DNA of 33,981 nucleotides from Robiginitomaculum sp. (GTDB taxonomy: Bacteria; Pseudomonadota; Alphaproteobacteria; Caulobacterales; Maricaulaceae): assembly GCA_002733905.1 (NCBI GenBank), contig NVXK01000006.1:91021-125001 (forward strand), written 5' to 3'. A program made the position numbers and the translations under genes. Below the pieces are notes generated by a model. The model saw nothing but the letters and a program-made list of their open reading frames with translations, searched no databases and was not told where the DNA came from. Positions 5,335-18,947 of the stretch are shown here, piece by piece (the stretch's first letter is position 1; each line of letters begins with the position of its first letter).

Positions 5335-5868
5335 TTATTTATTGCGGGCTTTTTTATAGGCTTTGATCGCGAACATCAGGGTGAAGGACAGGACGAGCAA
5401 GCCGATAACCCCGTAAACCCAATCAATCGCGCTTTTTAAGACGACAGTGAAGACAATAGAAAAAAGGAGAATGGTGGCGACTTCATTCCAGACCCGTAAT
5501 TTAAGGGCCGTAGATTTCACCACGTCATTTTGTAATTGTTTGAAGATGATATGGCATTTGAAATGATACAGATAAAGCAGGCCGACAAATCCAAGTTTTA
5601 CATGCAACCACGGCATTTTTAAAAGCTCTGGATTTTGGCTTAGCATGAGTATGGCTGATACGCCTGTGATGATCGCGGATGGCCACGTGATAATATACCA
5701 GAGGCGCTTTTCCATGATTTTGTATTGGGTTTGCAAGATGACTCGCTCTTGCTCTGGTTTTTTTTGTGCTTCCGCATGATAAATAAACAGGCGCACAATA
5801 TAGAGCAGGCCAGCAAACCAGCTGACAACAAAAATAACATGGATGGCTTTGGCGTATAAAAAGTACAT
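5335..5868 (-). CDS. hemJ: HemJ-type protoporphyrinogen IX oxidase (CopD-family membrane protein)
   Basis: Integral membrane protein predicted to oxidise protoporphyrinogen IX to protoporphyrin IX, the penultimate heme step. About four hydrophobic segments are visible. Conserved points are the AKAIHVIFVVSWFAGLLY start with an early His, ME-KRLWYIITWPS, the conserved Lys in WLHVKLGFVGLLYLYH, and RVWNEVATILLF. I start it at ATG 5868 because HemJ proteins begin MYxxxKAxH; an in-frame TTG at 5916 would add 16 residues. The gene is divergent from hemE with a gap of under 100 bp, and no other protoporphyrinogen oxidase is present, so it completes the HemE-HemF-HemJ series. The segment KRLWYIITWPSA and the C-terminal WVYGVIGLLVL resemble flavobacterial CopD/HemJ proteins more than the alphaproteobacterial HemJ I know. 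Confidence 0.88.
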   Translation of the reverse strand: MYFLYAKAIHVIFVVSWFAGLLYIVRLFIYHAEAQKKPEQERVILQTQYKIMEKRLWYIITWPSAIITGVSAILMLSQNPELLKMPWLHVKLGFVGLLYLYHFKCHIIFKQLQNDVVKSTALKLRVWNEVATILLFSIVFTVVLKSAIDWVYGVIGLLVLSFTLMFAIKAYKKARNK

Positions 5869-5946
5869 AACGAGAAACTTGTAAGAGATTTCACAAAGTA
5901 ATGGAAGCGCTTTCAATACTGTAATACAAGACCATGGATTTAAGTA

Positions 5947-6990
5947 ATGAAGTGTGACCTCCTAATGTTGAAAAATGATTTATTCCTACGTGCCCTTAAA
6001 GGCGAAACTGTAAACCGCCCTCCCGTCTGGATGATGCGTCAAGCAGGGCGGTATTTACCTGAATTTATTGAAATTCGTAAAAAATATGACTTTTTCACCC
6101 GTTGCCAAACACCAGAACTTGCGAGCGAAATTACGGTGCAGCCTATTCGCCGTTACGGTATGGACGCGGCGATTTTATTCTCTGATATTTTGGTCATTCC
6201 GCAAGCTATGAATATAGAAGTGCAGATGAAGCCAGACTTTGGCCCGTATCTGCCTAACCCTGTACGCGATCAAAAAGGTGCGGACGCGGTGATTGTGCCT
6301 GATGTTGACGAAACACTTGGCTATGTCATGGACGCGATAAAAATGACCAAAGAAAAACTGGCGGATGAGATTCCGTTGATTGGTTTTGCAGGCTCGCCTT
6401 GGACAATCCTATGTTATGTGGTGCAGGGGCAAGGCAGTAAGAATTTCGACCTTGTGAAAAAACTTTGTTTTACAGAGCCCGATGTGGCGCATCAGCTCTT
6501 GCAAAAAATTACGGATACGACGATTGCATATTTGAAAGCCAAAGTCGTGGCAGGTGTCGACGCGGTGCAAATCTTTGACAGTTGGGGCGGCATGCTTTCC
6601 CCCGTTGATTATCAAGAATTTTCATGGCGCTATATTCAACAAATTATAGACGCGCTTAAAGGCGACGCGCCTGTTATTGTCTTTGGCAAGGGATGTTGGT
6701 TTGCGCTTGGGCAAATGGCCGAGAGCGGCGCGGCGGCGCTTGGGGTGGACTGGACATGTTCGCCAAAAACTGCGCGTGAACTTACGGGCGGAAAAATCAC
6801 GCTACAGGGAAATTTTGACCCGTCTCGCCTTTTGTCTCCGCCGTCTGTGATTAAAACAATGGTGCATGATATGATACGCGAATTTGGCAAAGACCGCTAT
6901 ATTGTCAATTTAGGTCACGGTATTTTGCCTTATATCAATTTAGAAAACGCGGGTGCGTTTATAGACGCTGTGAAAACGTATAAAGAATAG
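5947..6990 (+). CDS. hemE: Uroporphyrinogen decarboxylase
   Basis: Cytosolic enzyme that converts uroporphyrinogen III to coproporphyrinogen III. The signature [15 protein letters not shown] is at residues 25-39 and the catalytic-Asp segment [12 protein letters not shown] at 79-90. [21 protein letters not shown] and the C-terminal VNLGHGILP are also present. The 347 residues match the family. An internal ATG at 5965 ([11 protein letters not shown]) is probably the true start, since most homologues begin there; neither start has a clear ribosome site. It is followed by hemF after about 47 bp and probably co-transcribed. Several stretches, such as [20 protein letters not shown] and GQGSKNFD, read as Bacteroidota-type HemE; proteobacterial HemE differs there. 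Confidence 0.95.
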
Positions 6991-7037
6991 GCGCCTCATA
7001 AACCCTGATTTCTGAAGCCTGATATATGGAGCCTAAT

Positions 7038-7940
7038 ATGAAGACCAAGTTTAAAGCTTATATTGACGATCTACAAAACACGATTTGCGCCCAGCTTGAA
7101 GCTGTTGATGGCGGTGCTACATTTATCGAGGATATTTGGACGCGTCCAGAGGGCGGCGGTGGTCGTACACGTGTGATTTCCGAAGGCAATGTGTTTGAAA
7201 AAGGCGGGGTGAATGTGTCCGCAGTCCACGGCGAACTTCCTCTTGCCATGCAGCAACATTTCGGTGTGACGGACGCGCAGTTCTATGCCTGTGGTCTCAG
7301 TCTTGTTTTGCACCCTAAAAGTCCGATGGTGCCGACGGTACATGCTAATTGGCGTTATTTTGAAATGTATGATTCAGACGGTAATGTTGCTGATCAATGG
7401 TTTGGTGGTGGGCAGGATTTAACACCTTATTATTTGCAAGAAGATGATGCCCGTCATTTTCATGGCGTCTGTAAAACGGCATGTGACGCGCATGACGCGG
7501 CATTTTATCCTCAGTATAAAGCGCGCTGCGACGAATATTTCTACAATGCTCATCGTCATGAAGGACGCGGTATTGGCGGATTGTTTTTTGATTATTTAAA
7601 GGCGAAGGATCAAATGTCTATGGACGATTTGTATGCATTTGTCAGCCAAGTCGGGGACAGCTTTTGCGAGGCCTATGTGCCGATTGTTGAAAAACGTAAG
7701 GCGGAGACGTATACAGAGGCGCAAAAAACATGGCAGGAAATTCGCCGTGGCCGCTATGTGGAATTTAATCTGATCCATGACAAAGGCACATTGTTTGGTT
7801 TAAAAACCAATGGGCGGATTGAAAGCATATTGATGAGCCTGCCTAAACATGTGCAATGGCATTATAACCACACACCTGAAGAGGGAAGCCCAGAGGCTGT
7901 TTTGGTTGACGTTTTGAAAAATCCAAAAGATTGGGTTTAA
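7038..7940 (+). CDS. hemF: Coproporphyrinogen III oxidase, oxygen-dependent
   Basis: Cytosolic oxygen-dependent enzyme that decarboxylates coproporphyrinogen III to protoporphyrinogen IX. Family landmarks: WTRPEGGGGRTRVI, FEKGGVNVSAVHGELP, PMVPTVHANWRYFEM, WFGGGQDLTPYYL, HRHEGRGIGGLFFD, and near the end RRGRYVEFNL and FGLKTNGRIESILMSLP. I use ATG 7038 because GGAG lies 6 nt upstream (an in-frame ATG at 7026 adds four residues), giving 300 residues. It follows hemE closely and its product feeds HemJ. The C-terminus ending in KNPKDWV and the overall text look like flavobacterial HemF. Oxygen dependence implies heme is made this way under aerobic or microaerobic conditions unless a HemN exists elsewhere. 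Confidence 0.95.
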   Translation: MKTKFKAYIDDLQNTICAQLEAVDGGATFIEDIWTRPEGGGGRTRVISEGNVFEKGGVNVSAVHGELPLAMQQHFGVTDAQFYACGLSLVLHPKSPMVPTVHANWRYFEMYDSDGNVADQWFGGGQDLTPYYLQEDDARHFHGVCKTACDAHDAAFYPQYKARCDEYFYNAHRHEGRGIGGLFFDYLKAKDQMSMDDLYAFVSQVGDSFCEAYVPIVEKRKAETYTEAQKTWQEIRRGRYVEFNLIHDKGTLFGLKTNGRIESILMSLPKHVQWHYNHTPEEGSPEAVLVDVLKNPKDWV

Positions 7941-7943
7941 GGT

Positions 7944-7987
7944 TTTAGCCTACCCAAAACTTTAGCCTACAAAACCTTTAGCCTACA
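7944..7987. repeat. Three tandem copies of a 17-bp unit at the fpr 3' end
   Basis: TTTAGCCTAC recurs at 7944, 7961 and 7978, spaced exactly 17 bp. The copy at 7978 is the real fpr end (coding Phe-Val-Gly-stop on the minus strand); the other two repeat that end in the 37-bp gap before hemF. Probably replication slippage. Confidence 0.75.
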
Positions 7988-8808
7988 AAAGCTTTTTCAA
8001 TCACGAAATCAGCAGGTTTAGCGTTCGATCCTTCGACAAGGCCGAATGTTTCTACCATTGCTTTGGTGTCTTGGGTCATTGCCATAGAGCCGCAAATCAT
8101 CACGCGGTCTGTTTTAGGGTTTAAGGGGCCGCCTTTGATATGATCAAATAATTCACCCGTTTCTAGCAAAGTCGTAATACGGCCTTTCAAGGGGTAATCT
8201 TGACGGGTTACGCTTGTGATATGCACGAGCTTGTCTTTTACAAGTTCGCCTAAAAATTCATGATCGCGCACAGATTGGACGAGTTGTTTGCCGTATTCTA
8301 ATTCATCAATGTCGCGGCACGTATGGGTCAGGATAACCTGATCGAAATTTTCGTACACATCTGGGTCACGGATCAAGCTGGCAAAAGGGGCGAGGCCTGT
8401 ACCCGTTGAAAACATAAACAGGCGTTTACCGGGCAAGAGCGCGTCCAGTACCAAAGTGCCGACAGGTTTTTTACCCAAAAGAACTTTGTCGCCAATTTCT
8501 ATCTTTTGTAATTTGGAGGTGAGGGGGCCGTCGGGCACTTTAATGGAATAAAAATCCAGCTTCTCATCCCACGCAGGGCTGGCGATTGAATATGCACGTA
8601 AAAGCGGTTTTGGTTTGCCGTTCTTCTCGCCCATCAAACCGATCATAACAAATTCGCCAGAGCGAAACCTGAAACCTGCGGGACGGGTAATCGAGAACGA
8701 GAAAAGCGTATCTGTGAAATGCTTTGTCGCAAGCACTGTCTCTTCAGTTGGTGCGTTTGGGTTGATTTTTTTTACAGGCTTGACGTCTGCCGTCTTTGTA
8801 TCTGTCAT
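7978..8808 (-). CDS. fpr: Ferredoxin/flavodoxin-NADP+ reductase
   Basis: Cytosolic FAD enzyme that exchanges electrons between NADPH and ferredoxin or flavodoxin. FAD-binding motif RAYSIASP sits near residues 78-85, and the NADP-binding GTGLAPFASLIRDP near 138-151. CGSMAM precedes the C-terminal end KAFVG, which is typical of bacterial-type Fpr. At 276 residues it carries about 18 more N-terminal residues than usual (Lys/Pro-rich). It starts 14 bp after the XRE-cupin gene on the same strand, so the two form an operon. Lying beside cysG-cysI it is a plausible electron source for the ferredoxin-dependent sulfite reductase; it could equally serve Fe-S or oxidative-stress needs. Confidence 0.93.
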   Translation of the reverse strand: MTDTKTADVKPVKKINPNAPTEETVLATKHFTDTLFSFSITRPAGFRFRSGEFVMIGLMGEKNGKPKPLLRAYSIASPAWDEKLDFYSIKVPDGPLTSKLQKIEIGDKVLLGKKPVGTLVLDALLPGKRLFMFSTGTGLAPFASLIRDPDVYENFDQVILTHTCRDIDELEYGKQLVQSVRDHEFLGELVKDKLVHITSVTRQDYPLKGRITTLLETGELFDHIKGGPLNPKTDRVMICGSMAMTQDTKAMVETFGLVEGSNAKPADFVIEKAFVG

Positions 8809-8822
8809 AGTTTTGTCTTTAC

Positions 8823-9449
8823 TTAAATGTGATAATTGGTGTCTAAATTCGGGGTGAGTGCCAAGATATTGACCATGGTTGCCCGTGCAGGCACTGTGCC
8901 GATATTGGTGACGCTGTGGGTCTCGTCGGCACGGTAGCGTAGCGTTTCACCTGCTTTGACCGCCCATGTTTCACCGCCGACTTGTACTTCAAGTTCTCCT
9001 TCAAGCACGCTTAAGTTTTCGACAGAGCCATTCGGGTGGGCGGAACTTTCTAATGTGCCGCCGACTTGAGCGCTAAAATCATACCATTGCACATATTCAA
9101 CAGTGGCCATCCATCCGATGATACGCAGTGTGCAGAGCCCGTCTTCGCTTTCGATAAGGGGAATGTCTTGGCGGTTTGATTTTTGCACCAAAGCTGTTCC
9201 GCTTGTATTGGTGGTCAAAATGGATTCAACCGATGTGCCAAGTGCGCGGCTGAGGCGTGTGATGGTCGCGAGTGTCGGGTTGCTCTCATTTTTCTCGATT
9301 TGGGATATCATAGATTTGGCAACGCCAGATTGCTCGGACAAATCACCAAGGGAGAGCTTTCCCGCTTGACGCAAACGCGAAACCGTTTGACCAAAGTGTG
9401 CGCCAACTGCGTCGCACTGTGCATCTTTTTTGCGTTTTTGTCGTGACAT
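8823..9449 (-). CDS. XRE-family regulator with C-terminal cupin domain
   Basis: DNA-binding regulator with an effector-sensing cupin. The HTH covers about residues 18-75 (LSLGDLSEQSGVAKSMISQI, with the typical NESNPTLATITRLSRAL after it) and the cupin_2 barrel about 125-200 (EGELEVQVGGETWAVKAGETLRYRADETHSV, quoted here only as a location between 148 and 180). The 208 residues fit the family. It is co-directional with fpr 14 bp downstream and divergent from cysG across a 169-bp gap holding a perfect 16-bp palindrome. It is therefore a good candidate to control itself, fpr and the cys operon. Its effector is unknown; related proteins sense amino acids, polyamines or sulfur compounds. Confidence 0.88.
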   Translation of the reverse strand: MSRQKRKKDAQCDAVGAHFGQTVSRLRQAGKLSLGDLSEQSGVAKSMISQIEKNESNPTLATITRLSRALGTSVESILTTNTSGTALVQKSNRQDIPLIESEDGLCTLRIIGWMATVEYVQWYDFSAQVGGTLESSAHPNGSVENLSVLEGELEVQVGGETWAVKAGETLRYRADETHSVTNIGTVPARATMVNILALTPNLDTNYHI

Positions 9450-9483
9450 AATGTCGTTTGGGCCTCTGGTTAATAACTATTCT

Positions 9484-9512
9484 TAAATAGGGTGGCTTGC
9501 GCGCGCCATCAA
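9484..9512 (-). promoter_or_regulatory. Predicted promoter of the XRE-fpr operon
   Basis: Minus strand TTGATG (9512-9507), 17-bp spacer, TATTTA (9489-9484). Start of transcription would fall near 9477, about 28 nt before the XRE ATG. Hexamer and spacing prediction only. Confidence 0.5.
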
Positions 9513-9531
9513 GGGCTGATATTGTAATTAT

Positions 9532-9547
9532 GTTCTATATATAGAAC
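9532..9547. promoter_or_regulatory. Perfect palindrome between XRE-fpr and cysG, likely operator
   Basis: GTTCTATATATAGAAC is a perfect 16-bp palindrome. It lies about 20 bp upstream of the minus-strand -35 of the XRE gene and just upstream of the plus-strand -35 of cysG. That suits a site read by the divergent XRE-cupin protein, either repressing or activating. Confidence 0.6.
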
Positions 9548-9555
9548 GAATAGTC

Positions 9556-9584
9556 TTGTAAATCGTTTATTGAGGGCTTAAATA
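9556..9584 (+). promoter_or_regulatory. Predicted cysG operon promoter
   Basis: TTGTAA (9556-9561), 17-bp spacer, TAAATA (9579-9584). Transcription would start near 9591, 28 nt before the cysG ATG. The 16-bp palindrome ends 8 bp upstream of the -35. Confidence 0.45.
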
Positions 9585-9618
9585 GCTTTTAGCGTACTAT
9601 TAATGAAACGAGACCAAT

Positions 9619-11013
9619 ATGCGATACCTACCAATCCATGTGGATTTGAAAGAGGCGAAAATTCTTATCGTCGGTGGTGGACGTGCGGCTGAGGCTAAGA
9701 TGAGAACGCTGGTCAATACGCAAGCCGCGCTGATTGTTGTTGCTATGGACATTAGTGATGAAATTCAAAAATGGGTATCCGCAGACAAATGTGTTTGGAA
9801 ACAACGTGCCTATAAAAAGTCTGATATATCGGGTGTGCGGTTGGTGTATTTGGCCAGTGAAGACATTGCTTTGGATAGCCGTGTCGCGGAACATGCACAT
9901 GCACAAAATATTTTGGTCAACCGCGCAGATGATAAACAGGCATCTGATTTCTTTTCCCCTGCGATTATCGACCGTTCGCCTGTGACAATTTCTATTGGCA
10001 CCGAGGGGACGTCGCCTGCATTGGCGCGTGCGTTAAAGCAGGATATCGAATCGAGATTGCCAAATAATTTGGGTAAATTTGCGCTTATGCTGGCGAAATC
10101 ACGTAAACGGCTTATGGGAATTTTACCGAGTTTTGCGGCGCGGCAGCATTTTTGGGCGACTTTGTTTAATGGCAGTGATCTGACTACAAAATTAAGTTGG
10201 GACGAGGCGATGGTAGAGAGCAAAGTGAGCGCACAACTCGCAGGATTGGATAGTAGTTCTGGTCATGTGGCGCTTGTTGGTGCTGGCCCTGGTGATCCTG
10301 ATCTTATGACACATCAGGCGCGCCACAAATTGTTTAGCGCAGATGTTATTGTTTATGACCGCCTTGTAAGTAAAGATGTATTGGGGTTTGGCCGTAAAGA
10401 GGCTGAATATATATATGTCGGAAAAAACCCGAACGGAAGAACAACTCCACAAGAAGAGATTAATAAAATTTTGGTGGCGAAAGCGAAAAAAGGCTTATCG
10501 GTCGTGCGTCTCAAAGGCGGTGATCCGTTGATTTTTGGGCGTGCGGACGAAGAGGTTGATGTATTGGTCGCGGCTGGTATTTCTTTTGAAATTTGCCCGG
10601 GCATTACGTCTGCGGCGGCTGCGGCTGCGGCGATTGGTGTGTCTTTGACGGCGCGGGGTCAAAACAAAGCGGTAAGTTTGATTACGGGTCACGACACGAA
10701 AGGTTTTGCGGAACAAGACTGGACAGGCTTGGCGCGTCCTGATGCGCGCGCGGCAATTTATATGGGCATTGGTGCGGCACGTTTTATTCAAGGTCGGCTT
10801 TTGGTACATGGTGCCTCTGCACAATTACCTGTCAGCGTCGTTGAAAATGCGAGCTGTCCAGAACAGAAAATTGTTAGCTCGCGCCTTGGGACGCTTGCAG
10901 ATGATTTGGAAACACAGGGTATTAAAGGCCCTGCAATATTGATGATTGGTTACGCTGTACGTGACGTAAAAAAATTACAGCTGGTTAAAACCATTACGAA
11001 GACGGGAAGATAA
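9619..11013 (+). CDS. cysG: Siroheme synthase (bifunctional CysG)
   Basis: Makes siroheme, the cofactor of the sulfite reductase encoded two genes downstream, from uroporphyrinogen III. The N-terminal half (about 1-205) is the precorrin-2 dehydrogenase/ferrochelatase unit with the NAD motif LIVGGGRAAEAKMRTL and SPALARALKQDIE. The C-terminal half (about 213-460) is the SAM-dependent uroporphyrinogen III methyltransferase with VALVGAGPGDPDLMT, VVRLKGGDPLIFGRADEEV and a CPGITSAAAAAAAIG segment. The 464 residues are normal for CysG. DUF2849 starts after a 1-nt gap. It competes with HemE for uroporphyrinogen III, linking sulfur assimilation to the heme genes on both sides. Confidence 0.95.
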   Translation: MRYLPIHVDLKEAKILIVGGGRAAEAKMRTLVNTQAALIVVAMDISDEIQKWVSADKCVWKQRAYKKSDISGVRLVYLASEDIALDSRVAEHAHAQNILVNRADDKQASDFFSPAIIDRSPVTISIGTEGTSPALARALKQDIESRLPNNLGKFALMLAKSRKRLMGILPSFAARQHFWATLFNGSDLTTKLSWDEAMVESKVSAQLAGLDSSSGHVALVGAGPGDPDLMTHQARHKLFSADVIVYDRLVSKDVLGFGRKEAEYIYVGKNPNGRTTPQEEINKILVAKAKKGLSVVRLKGGDPLIFGRADEEVDVLVAAGISFEICPGITSAAAAAAAIGVSLTARGQNKAVSLITGHDTKGFAEQDWTGLARPDARAAIYMGIGAARFIQGRLLVHGASAQLPVSVVENASCPEQKIVSSRLGTLADDLETQGIKGPAILMIGYAVRDVKKLQLVKTITKTGR

Positions 11014-11014
11014 A

Positions 11015-11377
11015 ATGAGTACGCTAAAACATAAGGGCAAAGGCCCTCAAGCCCTAACCGCTAACGGGTTACGCACTGGCCCTGTCGTGTATTTAAGCGC
11101 CGATTACACGTGGAATACGGCTTTTGAAAATGCCATGCTCACCGAAGATCCTTTGGTGATTGCGCGTATGAGCGAGGCGGGTGACCGCGACGAAGAGGAA
11201 AATTTGATCGTTGGCCCGTATTTCATTGATGTAGATGCCGAGACACATCTGCCCGCGCGTTACCGTGAGCGTTTTCGCGCACAAGGGCCAAGTTATGATC
11301 CGGGCAAGCCGACTTACGCAGAGCTTTTGATGAAGGACGGCGCGCAAGTGATTGGTCAACAAAGGGAGGGCAATTAA
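11015..11377 (+). CDS. DUF2849 family protein
   Basis: Small 120-residue protein of unknown biochemical role, found almost always between cysG and cysI in alphaproteobacteria, which is why I recognise it. Visible are GLRTGPVVYLSADYTW near the N-terminus and a VGPYFIDVD segment in the middle. No signal peptide, membrane segment or cysteine motif is present, so it is cytosolic. It overlaps nothing but is packed: 1 nt after cysG, and its stop directly abuts the cysI ATG, with the GGAGGG ribosome site of cysI inside its last codons. A role in sulfite-reductase function or assembly is inferred from context alone. Confidence 0.85.
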   Translation: MSTLKHKGKGPQALTANGLRTGPVVYLSADYTWNTAFENAMLTEDPLVIARMSEAGDRDEEENLIVGPYFIDVDAETHLPARYRERFRAQGPSYDPGKPTYAELLMKDGAQVIGQQREGN

Positions 11378-13033
11378 ATGTACCGCTATGATGAATTTGA
11401 TCACACATTTGTTCGCGCCCGTTCGCAACAGTTTAAGCGCCAAGTGGAACGCCGCCTTGACGGTAGTCTAAGCGAAGAACAGTTTCGCCCTTTGCGTTTG
11501 ATGAATGGTTTATATTTGCAACTGCATGCCTATATGCTGCGCGTTGCGATTCCGTATGGAACGTTCTCTGGTAAACAAATGCGTCAGCTTGCTATGATTG
11601 CGGATAAATATGACCGTGGGTATGGGCATTTTACCACGCGTCAAAACATTCAATATAATTGGCCTGATTTGGTTGATGTGCCTGCAATTTTAGAAGACTT
11701 GGCTGATGTGGAAATGCACGCAATCCAGACGTCTGGGAATTGTATTCGAAATACGACCTCTGATCCGTGGGCGGGGGCAGCAATTGACGAAATTGAAGAC
11801 CCACGCCCTATCGCAGAGTTGATCAGGCAATGGTCGAGTTTGCATCCTGAATTTACTTATCTACCGCGCAAGTTTAAAATCGCCATTACGGGAGCGAGCA
11901 ATGACCGCGCCGCTATTCGCGCTCATGATATTGGATTGCAAATTGTGCAAAATGACGCGGGAGAAAATGGCTTGCAAGTATATGTAGGTGGTGGGCTAGG
12001 CCGTACGCCTATTATTGGGAATGTCTTGCGGGAGTTTATTTCTCGTCATGAATTGCTGCCATATTTGGAAGCGATTATGCGTGTGTATAACCGTTATGGT
12101 CGCCGTGATAATAAATACAAAGCCCGTATTAAAATCCTTGTTCAGGAAACGGGGTTAGAAAAGTTTAGAGATGAGGTTGAGGCTGAATATGCACAGCTTG
12201 AGCCGCTTGATATTGCCGTGCCTCAAGAGGAGTTAAACCGTATTGCGGACTATTTTTCCGCACCTGATTATGACGATGTCTCTTCATCTGATGAGGGTTA
12301 TGACAAGGCGGTTATCTTGCATTCTGATTTTGCGGGTTGGGTACGATCCAATCTTAGCGAACATAAAATTTCTGGATATACGATTGTCAATATTTCTCTC
12401 AAGCCTCTTAAAGGGGCGCCTGGTGATATTAGTGCCGATCAAATGCGCGTGGTTGCGGATTTAGCACAAGAATATTCATTTGATGAAATTCGCGCGACCC
12501 ATGAGCAAAATTTAGTGCTTGCCAATGTTAAAAAATCCGACGTGTATGCTTTGTATCAAAAACTTGTTGTGGCAGAGCTAGCGACAGGAAATATTGGATT
12601 GATTTCTGATATTATTTGTTGCCCCGGTATGGATTATTGTGCGCTTGCGACGGCGCGGTCTATCCCTGTTGGCCAAGCAATTTCCGAGCGGTTCTCTGAT
12701 CCAGAACGTCAGCGTGTTATTGGTGAAATGAAGATCAAAATTTCTGGCTGTATTAATGCGTGTGGACATCATCATATTGGCCATATTGGTATTCTTGGCC
12801 TCGAGAAAGCTGGCGTGGAAACCTATCAGGTCAAGCTGGGGGGTGACGCGACGAGCACTGCTGAGGTTGGCAAAGTCACGGGTAAGGGCTTTTCGTTTGA
12901 CGAGCTTATTGACGCCATCGAACGTATGATTGATTTATACTTGCGCGAACGTGATACGGGCGAGCGTTTCCTTGATACCTATCGCCGTATCGGCATGGAA
13001 CCGTTTAAAGGCGTATTGTATGGTACTGATTAG
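11378..13033 (+). CDS. cysI: Sulfite reductase hemoprotein (nitrite/sulfite reductase family)
   Basis: Assimilatory reductase that reduces sulfite to sulfide with six electrons, using siroheme coupled to a [4Fe-4S] cluster. The cluster ligands are visible as C-x5-C in CCPGMDYC and C-x3-C in GCINAC in the last third. TSGNCIRNTTSDPWAG in the first half is the siroheme-contact region. The 551 residues match the ferredoxin-type alphaproteobacterial CysI. No CysJ flavoprotein is nearby, so electrons probably come from ferredoxin, perhaps through the nearby Fpr. GGAGGG 7-8 nt before the ATG is the best ribosome site in the operon. Its 3' end overlaps the DUF934 gene by 14 bp. Sulfite, not nitrite, is favoured because of the cys context. 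Confidence 0.93.
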   Translation: MYRYDEFDHTFVRARSQQFKRQVERRLDGSLSEEQFRPLRLMNGLYLQLHAYMLRVAIPYGTFSGKQMRQLAMIADKYDRGYGHFTTRQNIQYNWPDLVDVPAILEDLADVEMHAIQTSGNCIRNTTSDPWAGAAIDEIEDPRPIAELIRQWSSLHPEFTYLPRKFKIAITGASNDRAAIRAHDIGLQIVQNDAGENGLQVYVGGGLGRTPIIGNVLREFISRHELLPYLEAIMRVYNRYGRRDNKYKARIKILVQETGLEKFRDEVEAEYAQLEPLDIAVPQEELNRIADYFSAPDYDDVSSSDEGYDKAVILHSDFAGWVRSNLSEHKISGYTIVNISLKPLKGAPGDISADQMRVVADLAQEYSFDEIRATHEQNLVLANVKKSDVYALYQKLVVAELATGNIGLISDIICCPGMDYCALATARSIPVGQAISERFSDPERQRVIGEMKIKISGCINACGHHHIGHIGILGLEKAGVETYQVKLGGDATSTAEVGKVTGKGFSFDELIDAIERMIDLYLRERDTGERFLDTYRRIGMEPFKGVLYGTD

Positions 13034-13469
13034 GAATGGGGTTGAGCTTGGGCATGTCTCGGGCGAACTCCCAGATTTAGAAACGTATCTGGCGGGTAAT
13101 GAAGGTGATAGCGTTCTTTTATCACCAGATGTAGATTTGGAAACATTAAAGCCACGTCTTTCAGGGCTTGCTTTGATCGAGGTTTCGTTTCCGTCATTTA
13201 CGGATGGACGTGGTTTTTCGGTTGCAAAACAATTACGTCGGCTCGGGTATGAGGGGGAATTAATTGCGACAGGGCCGCTTATCCCCGATCAATATTTATG
13301 CGCTGTCCAGTGTGGGTTTGACGCAGTGAAAATTGAGCAAGAATGTTATGTGCGCCAAAGTGAAGGCGAATGGAATGAAGCGTTACATGCATTCGACCTC
13401 TTTTACCAAAGGGGATATGTTAGACAAAACCCTGTATCGCGGAATATAACCGAGGCGCGGTATGAGTAG
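13020..13469 (+). CDS. DUF934 family protein
   Basis: 149-residue protein of the DUF934 family, usually encoded right after cysI and annotated as an oxidoreductase probably involved in sulfite reduction. The catalytic role is unproven. Typical text is SFTDGRGFSVAKQLRRLGYEGELIATGPLIPDQ. The true start is the ATG at 13020 overlapping the end of cysI; the frame stays open further upstream only because it lies opposite cysI coding sequence. In many relatives cysH follows, but here the operon ends and hemA comes next after 194 bp, so APS/PAPS reduction must be encoded elsewhere. Confidence 0.88.
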   Translation: MVLIRNGVELGHVSGELPDLETYLAGNEGDSVLLSPDVDLETLKPRLSGLALIEVSFPSFTDGRGFSVAKQLRRLGYEGELIATGPLIPDQYLCAVQCGFDAVKIEQECYVRQSEGEWNEALHAFDLFYQRGYVRQNPVSRNITEARYE

Positions 13470-13513
13470 GCAGGCTGGAATATGTATCTTTTGTTACGAC
13501 TTACTGTGAATTC

Positions 13514-13527
13514 TTGACATGCATCAA
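13514..13527 (+). promoter_or_regulatory. FNR/FixK/Dnr-type box upstream of hemA
   Basis: TTGAC-ATGC-ATCAA matches the TTGAT-N4-ATCAA consensus of the CRP/FNR family at 9 of 10 positions. It lies 137 bp before the hemA ATG; a TTATAG -10-like hexamer follows at 13559 without a good -35, as at activator-dependent promoters. Suggests oxygen- or nitric-oxide-linked control. Confidence 0.5.
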
Positions 13528-13663
13528 AAATATGTAGTTTTTGTCTCGAAATTGCATTTTATAGGCCAAACTTTGTTCATTTAAGCAAGGTTTTTTCTTA
13601 CACTGGACAATAAAGCGTGTTAGATGTGTGCGTGTTGGATGTGCGAAGGGTAAAGAGACTTCC

Positions 13664-14923
13664 ATGAAGCGTGAAACAAGCTTAAAATTTAATTCGTTCT
13701 ACTGTATCGGCGTGAGCTTTCGTAAGGCTAATGTCGAGATACGCGGACAGTTCTCAATGGACCAAGATCATCAGGAAAAGCTCCTGAATGGTGCCCGCGC
13801 TGTTGGTATTAATGATGTTTTTGTTGTTTCCACATGTAACCGCACCGAAGTTTATGGTTTTGCACAACACCCATTCCAACTTATCAAATTATTGATTGAG
13901 CATTCACAAGGCAGTTTGGAAGACTTTCAAACCGTTGGCAGTGTTTTTAAAAATAATGAAGCGATTTCTCATATGTTTCGTGTTGGCGCAGGGCTTGATA
14001 GTCAAATCCTCGGCGATTTTGAAATCATCAGCCAGCTTCGGCAAAGCTTTACATTTTCCAAGAAAAATGGACAGACGAATTCTTACCTAGAACGCCTCGT
14101 CGATTTTGTTGTTAAAGCGAATAAACGTATCAAAACCGAAACCGATATTTCCAGTGGCGCGACGTCTGTTGCTTTTGCCGCTGTGCAATATATTCTGGGG
14201 ACGGTCGAAGATATTAACCGCAAAAACATTCTTTTGTTCGGCACAGGCGGTATTGGTCGTAATACGTGTGAGAACCTTGTTAAGCAGACAAATAACCGTC
14301 ATATCACACTTGTAAATCGTAGCCTTGAAAGTGCAGAAAAAATTGCCGGTAAATTTGATCTTACTGTCAAACCATTTGACGCATTAGAGCGTGAAATTCA
14401 ATCTGCAGATATTCTTATTGTGGCAACGGGGGCAGCAGTGCCAACCGTTACAAAAGAGATGATTGCGACGGGTAAAAAACTGCTCATTATTGATTTATCT
14501 GTGCCTGCGAATGTCGCGTCAGATGTGACAGATCATAAAGATGTACGGGTTGTGCATTTGGATGAACTTTCGCAAATTGCGATTGCGAATATTGCGAAAC
14601 GCAGGGCGCAATTGCCACGTGCGGAAGTAATCATTGGCGAAGTCGAGGCTGAATTTAATGCATGGCTTGCGACACGTCGTTTTGCGCCAGTGGTCAAAGC
14701 GCTTAGGGCCCAACTTGAGACAATCTCAAACAAAGAAATCGCGGCGCATAGTAAAAAACATCCAGGGTTTGATATTGAAGGCGCGGAAGCGGTTGCAGAA
14801 CGTATTGTGCAAAAAGTTACCAATCGGTTCGCGAATCATCTAAAAGAGAATCGTACGTCACAAGCAGAGAGTATTAATTTCATTGCGAGTGTGTTTCAGT
14901 TGGATAATTTACAAGACGAGTAA
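13664..14923 (+). CDS. hemA: Glutamyl-tRNA reductase (C5 pathway)
   Basis: First enzyme of the C5 heme route: NADPH-dependent reduction of glutamyl-tRNA to glutamate-1-semialdehyde. The catalytic Cys58 is in VVSTCNRTEVYGF. RVGAGLDSQILGDFEIISQL, the NADPH-domain motif LLFGTGGIGRNTCENL and the C-terminal dimerisation region (about 310-410) complete the fold. I use the ATG at 13664; the GTG at 13628 would add 12 poorly coded residues. At 419 residues it is normal for the family. AQHPFQLIKLL, TSVAFAAVQYI and FANHLKEN read as flavobacterial HemA. It is not the ALA synthase that carries the hemA name in most alphaproteobacteria. hemC/D follows 9 bp downstream. Confidence 0.96.
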   Translation: MKRETSLKFNSFYCIGVSFRKANVEIRGQFSMDQDHQEKLLNGARAVGINDVFVVSTCNRTEVYGFAQHPFQLIKLLIEHSQGSLEDFQTVGSVFKNNEAISHMFRVGAGLDSQILGDFEIISQLRQSFTFSKKNGQTNSYLERLVDFVVKANKRIKTETDISSGATSVAFAAVQYILGTVEDINRKNILLFGTGGIGRNTCENLVKQTNNRHITLVNRSLESAEKIAGKFDLTVKPFDALEREIQSADILIVATGAAVPTVTKEMIATGKKLLIIDLSVPANVASDVTDHKDVRVVHLDELSQIAIANIAKRRAQLPRAEVIIGEVEAEFNAWLATRRFAPVVKALRAQLETISNKEIAAHSKKHPGFDIEGAEAVAERIVQKVTNRFANHLKENRTSQAESINFIASVFQLDNLQDE

Positions 14924-14932
14924 AGCCTTTAG

Positions 14933-16630
14933 ATGAGCAAAATAATTAAAATTGGAACGCGGGAAAGTGAGCTTGCGCTCTGGCAAGCCAATCTTGTGCA
15001 AAATCAATTGCAAGAGCTTGGCTATCAAGTCCAAATCGTACCGATTAAATCGAGTGGTGATATAGAGCTTGATGTTCCGTTATATGAAATGGGCATTACC
15101 GGTATTTTTACGAAAGCCTTAGATGTGGCTATGTTGACAGGCCAAGTCGATATTGCGGTGCATTCGTTGAAAGATGTTCCGACGGCATTACCGCTAGGTA
15201 TTGTACAGGCCGCTGTTCTTGAACGGGCAAACCATCATGATGTTTTGGTTTATCAAGAAAACCGCGATGTTATTACGCCTTATGAGGGCGTCGTTGCGAC
15301 GGGGAGTTTACGGCGCAAGGCCGAATGGCTGCATAAATACCCTAAACATACTGTGGTTGGATTGCGCGGCAATGTGAATACACGTTTGCAAAAACTGGAA
15401 AATCATCATTGGAATGGGGCGATTTTTGCGGCGGCAGGTTTGGCGCGTTTGGGGAAAATGCCTGATACCCATACTGTTCTTGATTGGATGGTACCTGCAC
15501 CTGCCCAAGGCGCTATTATGATCGCGGCTTTGGCGGCGGATAGTTTTAGCCAAGAGGCTTGCGCGAAACTTAACCATGAGGCGAGCGAGATCTGTACGCG
15601 TATTGAACGCGAGTTTCTACGTGCGCTCGAAGGTGGTTGTACTGCACCTATTGGCGCCTATGCCACGATGAAACCAGGACGGTTTATGGGGCATGTCATA
15701 GATTTTCATGGTGTGTTGTTAAGTCGTGATGGTACAACACGCCTCGAAGTGACGAAAACCGCGAAACTTTCTGATCCTGTCGCATTTGCGAAATCTTGTG
15801 CGTATGATATTCTGATGCAGGGTGGCAAAGATATCCTTGCGGCTGATGCGGTGCAAGCAGAGGCCGAAGCTAATATCAAAGCCAAAGCCATACCCAAAGT
15901 CATTACGGCCGCGCCACAAGATGATTACGTGAAAGAGCCGACGGAAATTGTATTGAAAGACGCCGCTGGTATTGCTCATGTGGTTTCGACAAAAGTGTTG
16001 AGCGAGTCTCAATTAATGATGGTCAATAAAGACATTAAAATTGAGGAATTAGATTTCATTACTACCAAGATTTTGCCAATTCCGCCAGAGGCTGTGCGCA
16101 CTGATAGTATGATTATCACAAGCCAGACAACTGTGCGGGCTTTGCTCGCAAGTTTTCCGCGTTTGAATCTTCGGTTTAAAAATATTTATTGTGTTGGCGA
16201 CAAAACCAAAGCTTTGGTCGAAGAGCGTCTTGGACGTGTTTTGTATACGGCGCCAAGTTCCAAGGCTTTGGCTATTTATTTATGCCAAAATATGAGCAGT
16301 CGTGCAGTGACATATTTTTGTGGTAATCTGCGGCGTGGTGATATTTCAAAAATGCTCGGGGCTAATAATATCAAAGTGACCGAAGTTCCTGCCTATGAAA
16401 CCAAATATAGTGGACGTAAAGTGGTGGGTGAGTTTAGTGGCGTTATGTTTTATAGTCCATCGGGTGTACGGAGTTTTGTAAAGGCGAATGCGTCTGATAA
16501 GATCGCGTTTTGCATTGGCGAGACGACCGCACATGAAGCGCGTACTTATTTTAAAAATGTAGTCGTCGCGAAACAGTCCACAATCGAGCATATGCTCAAA
16601 ATGGTGAATGATTATTATGACGAGAGCTGA
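14933..16630 (+). CDS. hemCD: Fused hydroxymethylbilane synthase - uroporphyrinogen III synthase
   Basis: One 565-residue protein predicted to polymerise four porphobilinogens into hydroxymethylbilane and then cyclise it to uroporphyrinogen III. The HemC part covers about 1-310: [12 protein letters not shown] at the start, catalytic Asp81 in [26 protein letters not shown], and dipyrromethane-binding Cys236 in [10 protein letters not shown]. After an Ala/Lys-rich linker (about 308-345) the HemD part runs to the end, with [25 protein letters not shown] and [13 protein letters not shown]. Separate HemC proteins are about 310 residues and HemD about 230, so this is a full-length fusion. Its stop overlaps the hemB start by 1 nt. 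HemD text resembles flavobacterial HemD. Confidence 0.93.
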
Positions 16631-17619
16631 TGTCCAAAACTAATATATTGAGAACACGCCGCCTACGCGCGTCCGAAGGCATACGCCGTTTGGTGCGCGA
16701 GACGAAACTCTGCGTTGATGATCTTGTCTATCCTTTGTTTATTGAAGAAGGTGAAGGCATAGAGAGCGAAATCGAGGCCATGCCGGGTATTAAACGCTTT
16801 TCACTCGACCGCTTGTCTGGTGAACTTGACGAAGTGCACGCGCTCAAAATTCCTGCTGTATTATTGTTTGGTATCCCGTCACAAAAAGACGCCAGTGGGT
16901 CGCAAACATGGGATGATGACGGTATTATGCAACGTGCTATCACATTCGTGAAAAAAAATTATCCTGATTTATACGTCATTACCGATGTGTGCTTTTGTGA
17001 ATATACGGATCATGGGCATTGTGGTGTGATCGTCAAAAATGGTGATCGTCATGATGTCGATAATGACGCGACGCTTGATAACCTTGTAAAACAAACACTC
17101 TCCCATGCACGGGCAGGTGTCGATATGGTTGCGCCGTCGGGCATGATGGATGGGGCTGTGGGCGCAATGCGCGAGGGTCTTGACGCGGCTGGTTTTTCAC
17201 AATTGCCGATCATGGGCTATAGTGTGAAATATGCGTCTGCTTTTTATGGCCCATTCCGTGAAGCTGTTGATTCTACACCTAGTTTTGGTGATCGTCGCAC
17301 ATATCAAATGGACCCTGCTAATCGTCGTGAGGGGCAGATCGAGGCCGAGTATGATGACGCAGAGGGGGCCGATATTCTTATGGTCAAACCTGCGCTGTCT
17401 TATCTTGATATTGTCTCTGATTTGCGTGCGAATTTTGACAAGCCGATTGCGTGTTATAATGTTAGTGGTGAGTATTCCATGATCAAGGCCGCCGCCGCGA
17501 ATGGGTGGATTGATGGTGACCGTGTGATGATGGAGAGCTTGCTGTCGATGAAACGTGCGGGCGCTGATATTATTATTACCTATTTTGCCAAAGATGTAGC
17601 AAAGCTGCTCAATAGCTGA
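16630..17619 (+). CDS. hemB: Porphobilinogen synthase (5-aminolevulinate dehydratase), zinc type
   Basis: Condenses two 5-aminolevulinates to porphobilinogen. Schiff-base Lys200 ([13 protein letters not shown]) and Lys253 ([10 protein letters not shown]) are present. The active-site metal segment is [14 protein letters not shown], with Cys121, Cys123 and Cys131: the three-cysteine zinc site. Alphaproteobacterial HemB usually has a cysteine-poor, magnesium-type segment here, so this protein is of a different class. The 329 residues are normal. It is translationally packed with hemC/D (TGATG overlap) and followed by hemL after 38 bp. The start [13 protein letters not shown] fits homologues. Confidence 0.96.
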
Positions 17620-17657
17620 TACGTCCAGTTTTTTGCACTTAAACATACTGGTTCATC

Positions 17658-18947
17658 ATGAAACATACTAAATCAGAAAAGCTCTATCAAGAGGGCCTAG
17701 AACACCTTGTCGGCGCTGTGAATTCTCCCGTTCGCGCATTCTCGTCTGTTGGCGGCAACCCTATCTTCATTGAACGTGCAGACGGCAGTGAAATTGTTGA
17801 TGTTGACGGGAATAAATATGTTGATTATGTGCTGTCATATGGCCCGATGATCCTTGGTCATCGTCATGGTCGTGTACGTCGTAATGTCCGCAAAGCCCTC
17901 CGTAATGGATATTCATTTGGTGCGTCAACAAAATCAGAAATCAGGCTCGCGAAAATTATTTGTGACGCGATCCCAGGCATGGACAAAGTCCGCCTTGTTA
18001 ATTCTGGTACCGAAGCTGTCTTTAGTGCCATTCGTTTGGCACGTGCCTTTACGGGACGTGATAAAATTGTGAAATTCGCAGGATGTTATCATGGTCACGC
18101 GGATAGTTTGTTGATTGCAGCGGGTTCAGGCCTAGCGACATTGAGCCTTCCAGGCTCCAAAGGCGTGCCTGCGGCAGCGGTCGCCAATACATTGATCGCT
18201 AATTATAATGACCTTGAAAGCGTAAAACGCCATTTCGAACAACATGACGATATTGCAGGCATTATCATTGAACCGATTGCAGGTAATATGGGCGTTGTCC
18301 TGCCACAAGATAATTTCTTGCAAGAGCTGAAAGCTATTTGTGAAGACAATGGTGCGCTTTTGATTGTTGATGAAGTGATGACAGGCTTTCGCGCGAAATT
18401 CGGTGTGACCCAAGAAATTCTCGGTGTTGAAGCCGATATTACATGTCTTGGTAAAATTATTGGCGGCGGTTTTCCTGTTGGCGCATATGGTGCGCGTAAC
18501 GAAATTATGGAAATGGTCGCGCCGCTTGGCGAGATGTATCAAGCAGGTACACTGTCAGGTAATCCAATCGCAATGGCGGCGGGTATTTCAACTTTGCTAG
18601 AGCTGAAATCCCAAAACCCATTTGCGGAATTTGAAGAAGTTGCAGGGCGCCTTGAAAGTGCGCTTCTTAAATCGGCCAAGCGTCATCATGTTGATCTTAC
18701 GGTCAATCGTTTTGGCTCTATGATAAATCCGTTTTTCAAAAAAGGTGCCGTGACAAATTTCGCCGACGCGCAAGAATCTGATACGGAAAAATTCGCAGTC
18801 TTCTTCTGGTCTATGATCAATAGCGGCATCTTCCTGCCACCATCACAGTTTGAAGCGTGGTTCCTCTGCTCGGCCCTCAGCGACGAAGACATCGTCAAAA
18901 CCATTGACGCGATTGACGTTGCGATGAAAGCTGTTGCTAACGCTTAA
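17658..18947 (+). CDS. hemL: Glutamate-1-semialdehyde 2,1-aminomutase
   Basis: PLP enzyme that converts glutamate-1-semialdehyde to 5-aminolevulinate, the second C5 step. PLP Lys266 is in CLGKIIGGGFPVGAYG. VNSPVRAFSSVGG at the N-terminus, RLVNSGTEAVFSAIRLARA and MYQAGTLSGNP are family signatures. At 429 residues it is full length. It is the last gene of hemA-hemCD-hemB-hemL, and its stop lies 5 bp from the convergent marR stop. Unlike HemA/E/F its text does not clearly point to Bacteroidota, so its origin may differ. A decayed copy of its last codons is present at 21109-21190. Confidence 0.96.
   Translation: MKHTKSEKLYQEGLEHLVGAVNSPVRAFSSVGGNPIFIERADGSEIVDVDGNKYVDYVLSYGPMILGHRHGRVRRNVRKALRNGYSFGASTKSEIRLAKIICDAIPGMDKVRLVNSGTEAVFSAIRLARAFTGRDKIVKFAGCYHGHADSLLIAAGSGLATLSLPGSKGVPAAAVANTLIANYNDLESVKRHFEQHDDIAGIIIEPIAGNMGVVLPQDNFLQELKAICEDNGALLIVDEVMTGFRAKFGVTQEILGVEADITCLGKIIGGGFPVGAYGARNEIMEMVAPLGEMYQAGTLSGNPIAMAAGISTLLELKSQNPFAEFEEVAGRLESALLKSAKRHHVDLTVNRFGSMINPFFKKGAVTNFADAQESDTEKFAVFFWSMINSGIFLPPSQFEAWFLCSALSDEDIVKTIDAIDVAMKAVANA

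Follow-up and report, generated by a model that had tools for sequence, protein, structure and literature searches.

Most aerobes cannot do without heme synthesis. Three described systems come closest to the locus analysed here. In haemin-independent Haemophilus haemolyticus, an ancestor lost heme synthesis, which lateral transfer later restored to the lineage, probably in a single event (PMC7067038); in kinetoplastids the heme pathway was lost and the last three enzymes were replaced by lateral transfer from bacteria (PMC4870792); and in Coxiella burnetii a horizontally acquired tRNA-Glu bears on heme synthesis by the C5 route, that is, from glutamyl-tRNA (PMC5423948). In our searches of the open-licence literature of PubMed Central, no title or abstract opening among those listed described the case that follows. 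We analysed a 33,981-nucleotide stretch of a Robiginitomaculum sp. draft genome (contig C11:91021-125001 of G000; 3.48 Mb in 43 contigs, 96.9% complete, contamination estimate 0.9%), hereafter the window; G, C and L numbers are our own labels for genomes, contigs and loci. Between positions 5335 and 18947 it carries genes for nearly the whole pathway from glutamyl-tRNA to protoporphyrin IX. Judging from sequence comparison, we think it likely that these genes reflect a xenologous replacement of the native heme pathway from Flavobacteriaceae bearing an operon that we call type 2, a name coined in this analysis, that the native ferrochelatase HemH was kept, and that lineages of the genus then lost the pathway on at least four occasions.

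The gene order is HemJ, HemE and HemF, followed by Fpr-like, XRE-cupin, CysG, DUF2849, CysI and DUF934 genes, and then HemA, a HemC-HemD fusion, HemB and HemL, with the native siroheme and sulfite-reductase block sitting between two groups of hem genes. Families were called with NCBIfam profiles and their curated cut-offs (Pfam for XRE-cupin and DUF934). The hem genes are as follows.

5335..5916, minus strand: HemJ, protoporphyrinogen oxidase; likely start ATG near 5868; TIGR00701 129.3 bits against a cut-off of 138.05
5947..6990, plus strand: HemE, uroporphyrinogen decarboxylase, probable import; TIGR01464 423 bits against 303
7026..7940, plus strand: HemF, coproporphyrinogen oxidase, probable import; NF003727 414 bits against 297
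13664..14923, plus strand: HemA, glutamyl-tRNA reductase (GluTR), probable import; TIGR01035 290 bits against 209.6; reading frame open from GTG 13628
14933..16630, plus strand: HemC-HemD fusion, probable import; a single open reading frame (ORF) of 565 amino acids; HemC TIGR00212 271 bits against 164
16630..17619, plus strand: HemB, porphobilinogen synthase with a cysteine-rich metal site, probable type-2 import; NF006762 494 bits against 297
17658..18947, plus strand: HemL, glutamate-1-semialdehyde aminomutase, probable type-2 import; TIGR00713 585 bits against 527

The HemD half of the fusion reached 46.7 bits at best, below every family cut-off. Because both this half and HemJ fall below curated cut-offs, we named them also by their position and their resemblance to genes of flavobacterial operons; HemJ is 66% identical to a hemJ-like gene that adjoins hemH in the flavobacterial locus L088, and 31% identical to the native HemJ of the genus genome G027. 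HemE is 59-84% identical to its counterparts in Bacteroidota loci, against 35% to the native HemE of G027.

The operon order and the kind of HemB and HemL point to a particular flavobacterial source. When an alignment of five HemA sequences was scanned against named genomes, the best 80 of at least 583 confirmed relatives all carried Bacteroidota titles, at no more than 58% identity. In ordinary Flavobacteriaceae loci the genes typically run A-C-D-E-F-B, and HemB is 42-54% identical to that of the window; a HemL at 47-51% was present in 19 of the 20 Bacteroidota genomes that were searched. The locus L088 (uncultured Flavobacteriaceae isolate 2-853-G) is ordered A-CD-B-L-E-F, and its HemB and HemL are 75% and 73% identical to those of the window. 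HemL of the window's kind occurs in 30 of 397 genomes of the same family, Flavobacteriaceae (E <= 1e-145, 66-78% identity); the 20 of these 30 loci that were fetched (L238-L257), plus L088, make up our type-2 set. All 20 share the order A-C-D-B-L-E with L088, and HemF lies downstream in 11 of them as well as in L088. Their HemL is 67-78% identical to the window protein and their HemB 67-77% in 19 of 20 (51% in L241). The HemC-HemD fusion, common to the window and the nearest donor-type loci (L088, L238 and L240), was found in 36 of 98 testable loci, comprising L088, 22 other named loci, 10 of the 20 type-2 loci and 3 of this genus. The window resembles the type-2 operon in its A-C-D-B-L-E genes, in its close HemB and HemL and in the fusion. 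It differs in that A-CD-B-L is kept intact while E-F has moved upstream of the cys block, J-E-F being split off around it, and in that the genus keeps a native HemH, whereas hemH lies near the hem genes in L088.

The first-pass annotation of this DNA had allowed that HemL may have a source of its own. That suggestion is not borne out: the type-2 operon carries the window's kind of both HemB and HemL, which argues that the two arrived with the other hem genes. The type-2 operon itself looks mosaic, as its HemB and HemL differ from the ordinary flavobacterial ones. An enterobacterial-type HemL was considered and rejected, the best matches in the plasmid collection reaching 54% identity against 78% in Flavobacteriaceae.

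Phylogenies of the Hem proteins gave the same placement. The HemA tree held 26 of the best 80 relatives, 20 of the 30 type-2 loci, 30 alphaproteobacterial loci (from 72 genomes with a match, G000 counted) and 5 genus rows; the latter formed one clade (96 by the Shimodaira-Hasegawa-like approximate likelihood-ratio test, SH-aLRT) inside a clade dominated by Flavobacteriaceae, to which a handful of unassigned Bacteroidota records also belonged. HemL of six genus genomes formed one clade (93) nested among type-2 Flavobacteriaceae, and HemF (99) and HemJ (93) each gave a single genus clade as well. With eight Hem proteins concatenated, the genus was one clade (100) beside L088, G241 and G434, and its inner groups, (G000,G067,G101), (G093,G100) and G039, matched those of the rpoBC tree described below. 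The earlier proposal that the steps from glutamyl-tRNA to protoporphyrin IX were imported, displacing the native route, is upheld by these trees together with the donor-type operon order and the lack of a 5-aminolevulinate (ALA) synthase (ALAS) above cut-off in G000.

A GluTR-family gene scored above cut-off in 70 of 385 genomes of the class, G000 counted, as might be expected had an ancestral alphaproteobacterial C5 gene set been retained in this genus and passed to Flavobacteriaceae. We regard that direction of transfer as highly improbable, given that the 30 sampled alphaproteobacterial GluTRs were set apart from the genus HemA (SH-aLRT 100), that the genus HemA and HemL are nested among Flavobacteriaceae, and that HemL at E <= 1e-110 was found in only 4 class genomes of 385 besides G000, at no more than 50% identity. 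Moreover, GluTR was above cut-off in 4 of 99 genomes of the family, all from this genus (10 genomes of which were in the search), and in none of the other 95. The premise that alphaproteobacteria typically use ALAS fits the family, where 95 of 99 genomes lack GluTR above cut-off, but as far as GluTR-family genes go it meets many exceptions across the class. Among the fetched alphaproteobacterial loci (L208-L237), 26 of the 30 GluTRs grouped as one clade. The gene lies between hisS-like and prfA-like genes (named by eye) in L216 and L231 and beside hisS in L211, and L211, L216 and L228 read TCDR[VT]EV in place of TCNRTE; such a GluTR, lacking HemL, may be a leftover that has taken on a new function.

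We found no protein above the ALAS cut-off anywhere in the G000 draft. The two best hits (286 and 238 bits against a cut-off of 338.6) are glycine C-acetyltransferase and serine palmitoyltransferase, and were rejected as a hidden ALAS. Across 24 genomes searched, ALAS scored above cut-off in 14 of 14 from other genera of the family versus 1 of 10 in this genus (G027). The window HemA has the motif TCNRTE, which we take to be the catalytic-cysteine motif of GluTR, and HemL has LGK[IV][IV]GGG, presumably the lysine motif of glutamate-1-semialdehyde aminomutase; the naming of both enzymes in the first-pass annotation is confirmed by scores above the NCBIfam cut-offs at the positions listed. The C5 route is predicted to be the only ALA route of this genome.

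The block between the two groups of hem genes contains the following.

7978..8808, minus strand: ferredoxin/flavodoxin-NADP reductase-like protein (Fpr, a name we assume from the sequence), native block; 71-85% identity in G039 and G067
8823..9449, minus strand: XRE-cupin regulator, native block; Pfam HTH_3 and Cupin_2
9619..11013, plus strand: CysG siroheme synthase, native; NF007922 above cut-off; 61% identity in G027
11015..11377, plus strand: DUF2849 protein (an assignment taken over, as presumed, from the first-pass annotation), native block; kept between cysG and cysI in G067, G039, G027, G100 and G101
11378..13033, plus strand: CysI-like siroheme sulfite reductase, native; plasmid matches annotated as nitrite/sulfite reductase
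12930..13469, plus strand: DUF934 protein, native block; PF06073; no CysH domain in the window copy

The Fpr-like gene adjoins the cys block in G100 and G101 as well, and the XRE-cupin gene neighbours cysG in the native-route genome G027 too. The 15 listed of 47 plasmid records matching CysI (58-60.5% identity) come from genera that we take to be alphaproteobacterial, in agreement with the earlier view of this block as alphaproteobacterial. DUF934, which stands alone in the window, is fused to a phosphoadenosine phosphosulfate (PAPS) reductase domain (CysH) in G039 (L068:8624-9805); in G027, G100 and G101, cysI is followed by an ORF of similar length. The host RpoB best matched PDB 7ye1, presumably Caulobacter (2191 bits versus 1731 for the next), and the host looks alphaproteobacterial. 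The HemH gene of G000 lies on another contig (C1), and in the HemH tree 9 genus genomes, including G027 and G099 with the native route, made up a single clade (100) that was separate from the 86 Bacteroidota rows. By this placement the HemH of G000 is native, not flavobacterial.

As the genomes are draft assemblies, with 43 contigs in G000, contamination or a contig chimeric between an alphaproteobacterium and a flavobacterium might produce such a mixture. The arrangement of the cluster makes this vanishingly improbable. In both G000 and G067 the native cys genes sit among the imported ones, J-E-F lying beyond the cys block in each, and in G067 the hem cluster (about C1:59132-73250) shares one 221-kb contig with rpoB (C1:167044-171087), by which we consider a chimera refuted. 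The same clade of imported genes recurs in five other genus genomes, and the contamination estimate, as given above, is 0.9%. The window hem genes are also 42-48% guanine plus cytosine (GC), like their neighbours, against 29-33% in nine flavobacterial loci, and because of this host-like composition the transfer looks old. The imported genes lie on one stretch in G093 and G100, as A-CD-B-L, then J on the opposite strand, then E-F. Near this cluster are transposase-like ORFs, named by eye (L062:8272-8826; L065:345-1693), and a gene resembling the oxygen-independent HemN, which is above cut-off in L065.

The pathway varies within the genus. Of 14 draft genomes, 2 have the native ALAS route (G027 and G099, where ALAS adjoins HemB), 5 the imported pathway, 1 hemA-CD-B-L only, and 6 neither HemB nor HemE. 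Imported HemB, HemL, HemE, HemJ and HemF were found in G000, G067, G093, G100 and G101, the last three being 82%, 74% and 79% complete; HemA was not searched for in G101, where HemF is cut by a contig end. In G039, hemA-CD-B-L directly follows cysG-cysI-DUF934/CysH, and HemE and HemH were not found in the draft; this genome is predicted to make siroheme but not heme. Neither HemB nor HemE was found in the drafts of G011, G047, G057, G077, G085 and G102 (completeness across the six 100, 100, 98, 94, 92 and 87%), of which only G047 and G057 keep HemH, and no ALAS or GluTR was above cut-off in the five of them searched, G102 being left out. CysI, present in 7 of the 14 genomes, occurs in all that have HemB except G093 and in 0 of the 6 without HemB. 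None of the window Hem and Cys proteins had a relic match at E <= 1e-3 in 0.79 Mb from the six pathway-less genomes, 0.68 Mb of it from G047. These relatives would be heme auxotrophs, judging from drafts searched genome-wide for HemB, HemE and HemH. G047 encodes CoxA, CcoO and CcoP above cut-off and should therefore need heme; it also carries adjacent ORFs that by eye resemble a Fur-like regulator and rubrerythrin (L363:10423-11348), the latter of which would be a heme-free peroxide defence.

To place these states we used a species tree built from rplK, rplA, rplJ, rplL, rpoB and rpoC of 21 genomes, in which G099 was only 35% filled. This rpoBC tree contained two clades (100/100 each), both mixing imported and pathway-less genomes, and these joined to the exclusion of the native genomes at 95/95 when G099 was omitted. 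The fewest changes counted on the tree were five, namely one replacement and four losses (G085; G011 and G077; G057 and G102; G047).

Several observations weigh against a single ancient replacement with later losses. When G099 was included, support for the join was only 65/35 (LG+G4) or 76/76 (mixture model). Taken singly, HemC, HemE, HemB and HemD did not give a single genus clade (2, 2, 3 and 3 changes, of which starred branches force 1, 1, 2 and 1), and the G039 HemB, which has a long branch, grouped with three type-2 rows (96); recombination may have occurred, or the genes may have been gained more than once. All trees of Hem proteins were of a quick type with SH-aLRT support alone, several with long-branch warnings, and HemJ scores under its curated cut-off. 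The absences come from drafts, and with the imported genes in one cluster a single assembly gap could take all of them; for G102 the searches did not cover ALAS or HemA, and no empty site was shown in the part of G047 looked at (about 0.68 Mb of 2.8 Mb). Gaps as the cause are argued against by the recurrence of the absences in six genomes and by the fact that HemH, whose gene is on a separate contig in G000, was lost as well.

The same patchwork could arise if the derived part of the genus had already been a HemH-only auxotroph, like G047 and G057, in which a flavobacterial cassette without hemH restored synthesis once or several times. Genus genomes with HemH but without HemB or HemE do exist and lend this reading plausibility, the imported set lacks HemH although hemH adjoins hemJ in L088, imported and pathway-less genomes interleave in the rpoBC tree, and the four proteins just named lack a single genus clade. 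This order of events seems to us rather unlikely, since the Hem concatenation unites the genus in a single clade and the groups inside it recur in the rpoBC tree, as one gain and vertical descent would predict. Were it correct, tetrapyrrole synthesis would be reversible: a HemH-only auxotroph would have regained heme and siroheme, and hence sulfite reduction, through one cross-phylum C5 cassette and lost them again at least four times, with one siroheme-only stop, a sequence that we put forward as doubtful. We prefer a single ancient replacement with later losses because it needs the fewest changes counted on the rpoBC tree and because the inner groups of the imported clade agree with that tree.

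Read from gene content, trees, operon order and presence or absence in drafts, the timing and order of events, the enzyme activities and the auxotrophies would be as follows. An ancestor of most of the genus may have acquired a type-2 operon, hemA-hemCD-hemB-hemL-hemE-hemF with hemJ; the native ALAS route would have been lost and the native HemH kept. ALA would then be made from glutamyl-tRNA by the imported HemA and HemL, and converted to protoporphyrin IX by the imported HemB, HemCD, HemE, HemF and HemJ, with the native HemH, encoded on contig C1, inserting iron. Uroporphyrinogen III from the imported half would feed the native CysG, supplying siroheme to CysI. After the gain, the pathway would have been lost at least four times, CysI along with it, and in G039 it would have been trimmed to the siroheme half.

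The replacement may also have altered HemB chemically. The window HemB, all 5 other genus copies and 20 of 21 type-2 rows read DVCFCE[YF]T.HGHC (L241 has DIAMDP), whereas native HemB at this stretch reads DVALDP in 6 of 7 family rows and DAALDP in the seventh. Ordinary Bacteroidota HemB reads DVALDP in 6 rows, a seventh having no letters there. The cysteine-rich stretch is presumably a zinc-type metal site, and on that footing the replacement would have changed the HemB metal site to the zinc type.

Taken together, these data suggest that a pathway of eight activities was swapped across phyla, with a change of ALA route and of HemB metal site, one native enzyme being kept. A genus with native, imported, siroheme-only and pathway-less species could serve as a test case for the loss, replacement and trading of an essential cofactor pathway, and for the question whether heme supplied by neighbours makes its loss cheap.

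Among the systems introduced at the outset, H. haemolyticus offers a parallel in that heme synthesis was regained laterally after ancestral loss (PMC7067038). There, however, the donor was an ancestor of H. parainfluenzae, of the same genus, whereas the putative donor here belongs to another phylum, and here the ALA route would have switched from ALAS to C5 before repeated loss. The kinetoplastid case likewise combines pathway loss with partial lateral replacement, but concerns the last three enzymes only, in a eukaryote (PMC4870792), rather than eight activities in one bacterial operon. C. burnetii shares a lateral transfer touching C5 heme synthesis; the element acquired there was tRNA-Glu (PMC5423948), not the pathway.

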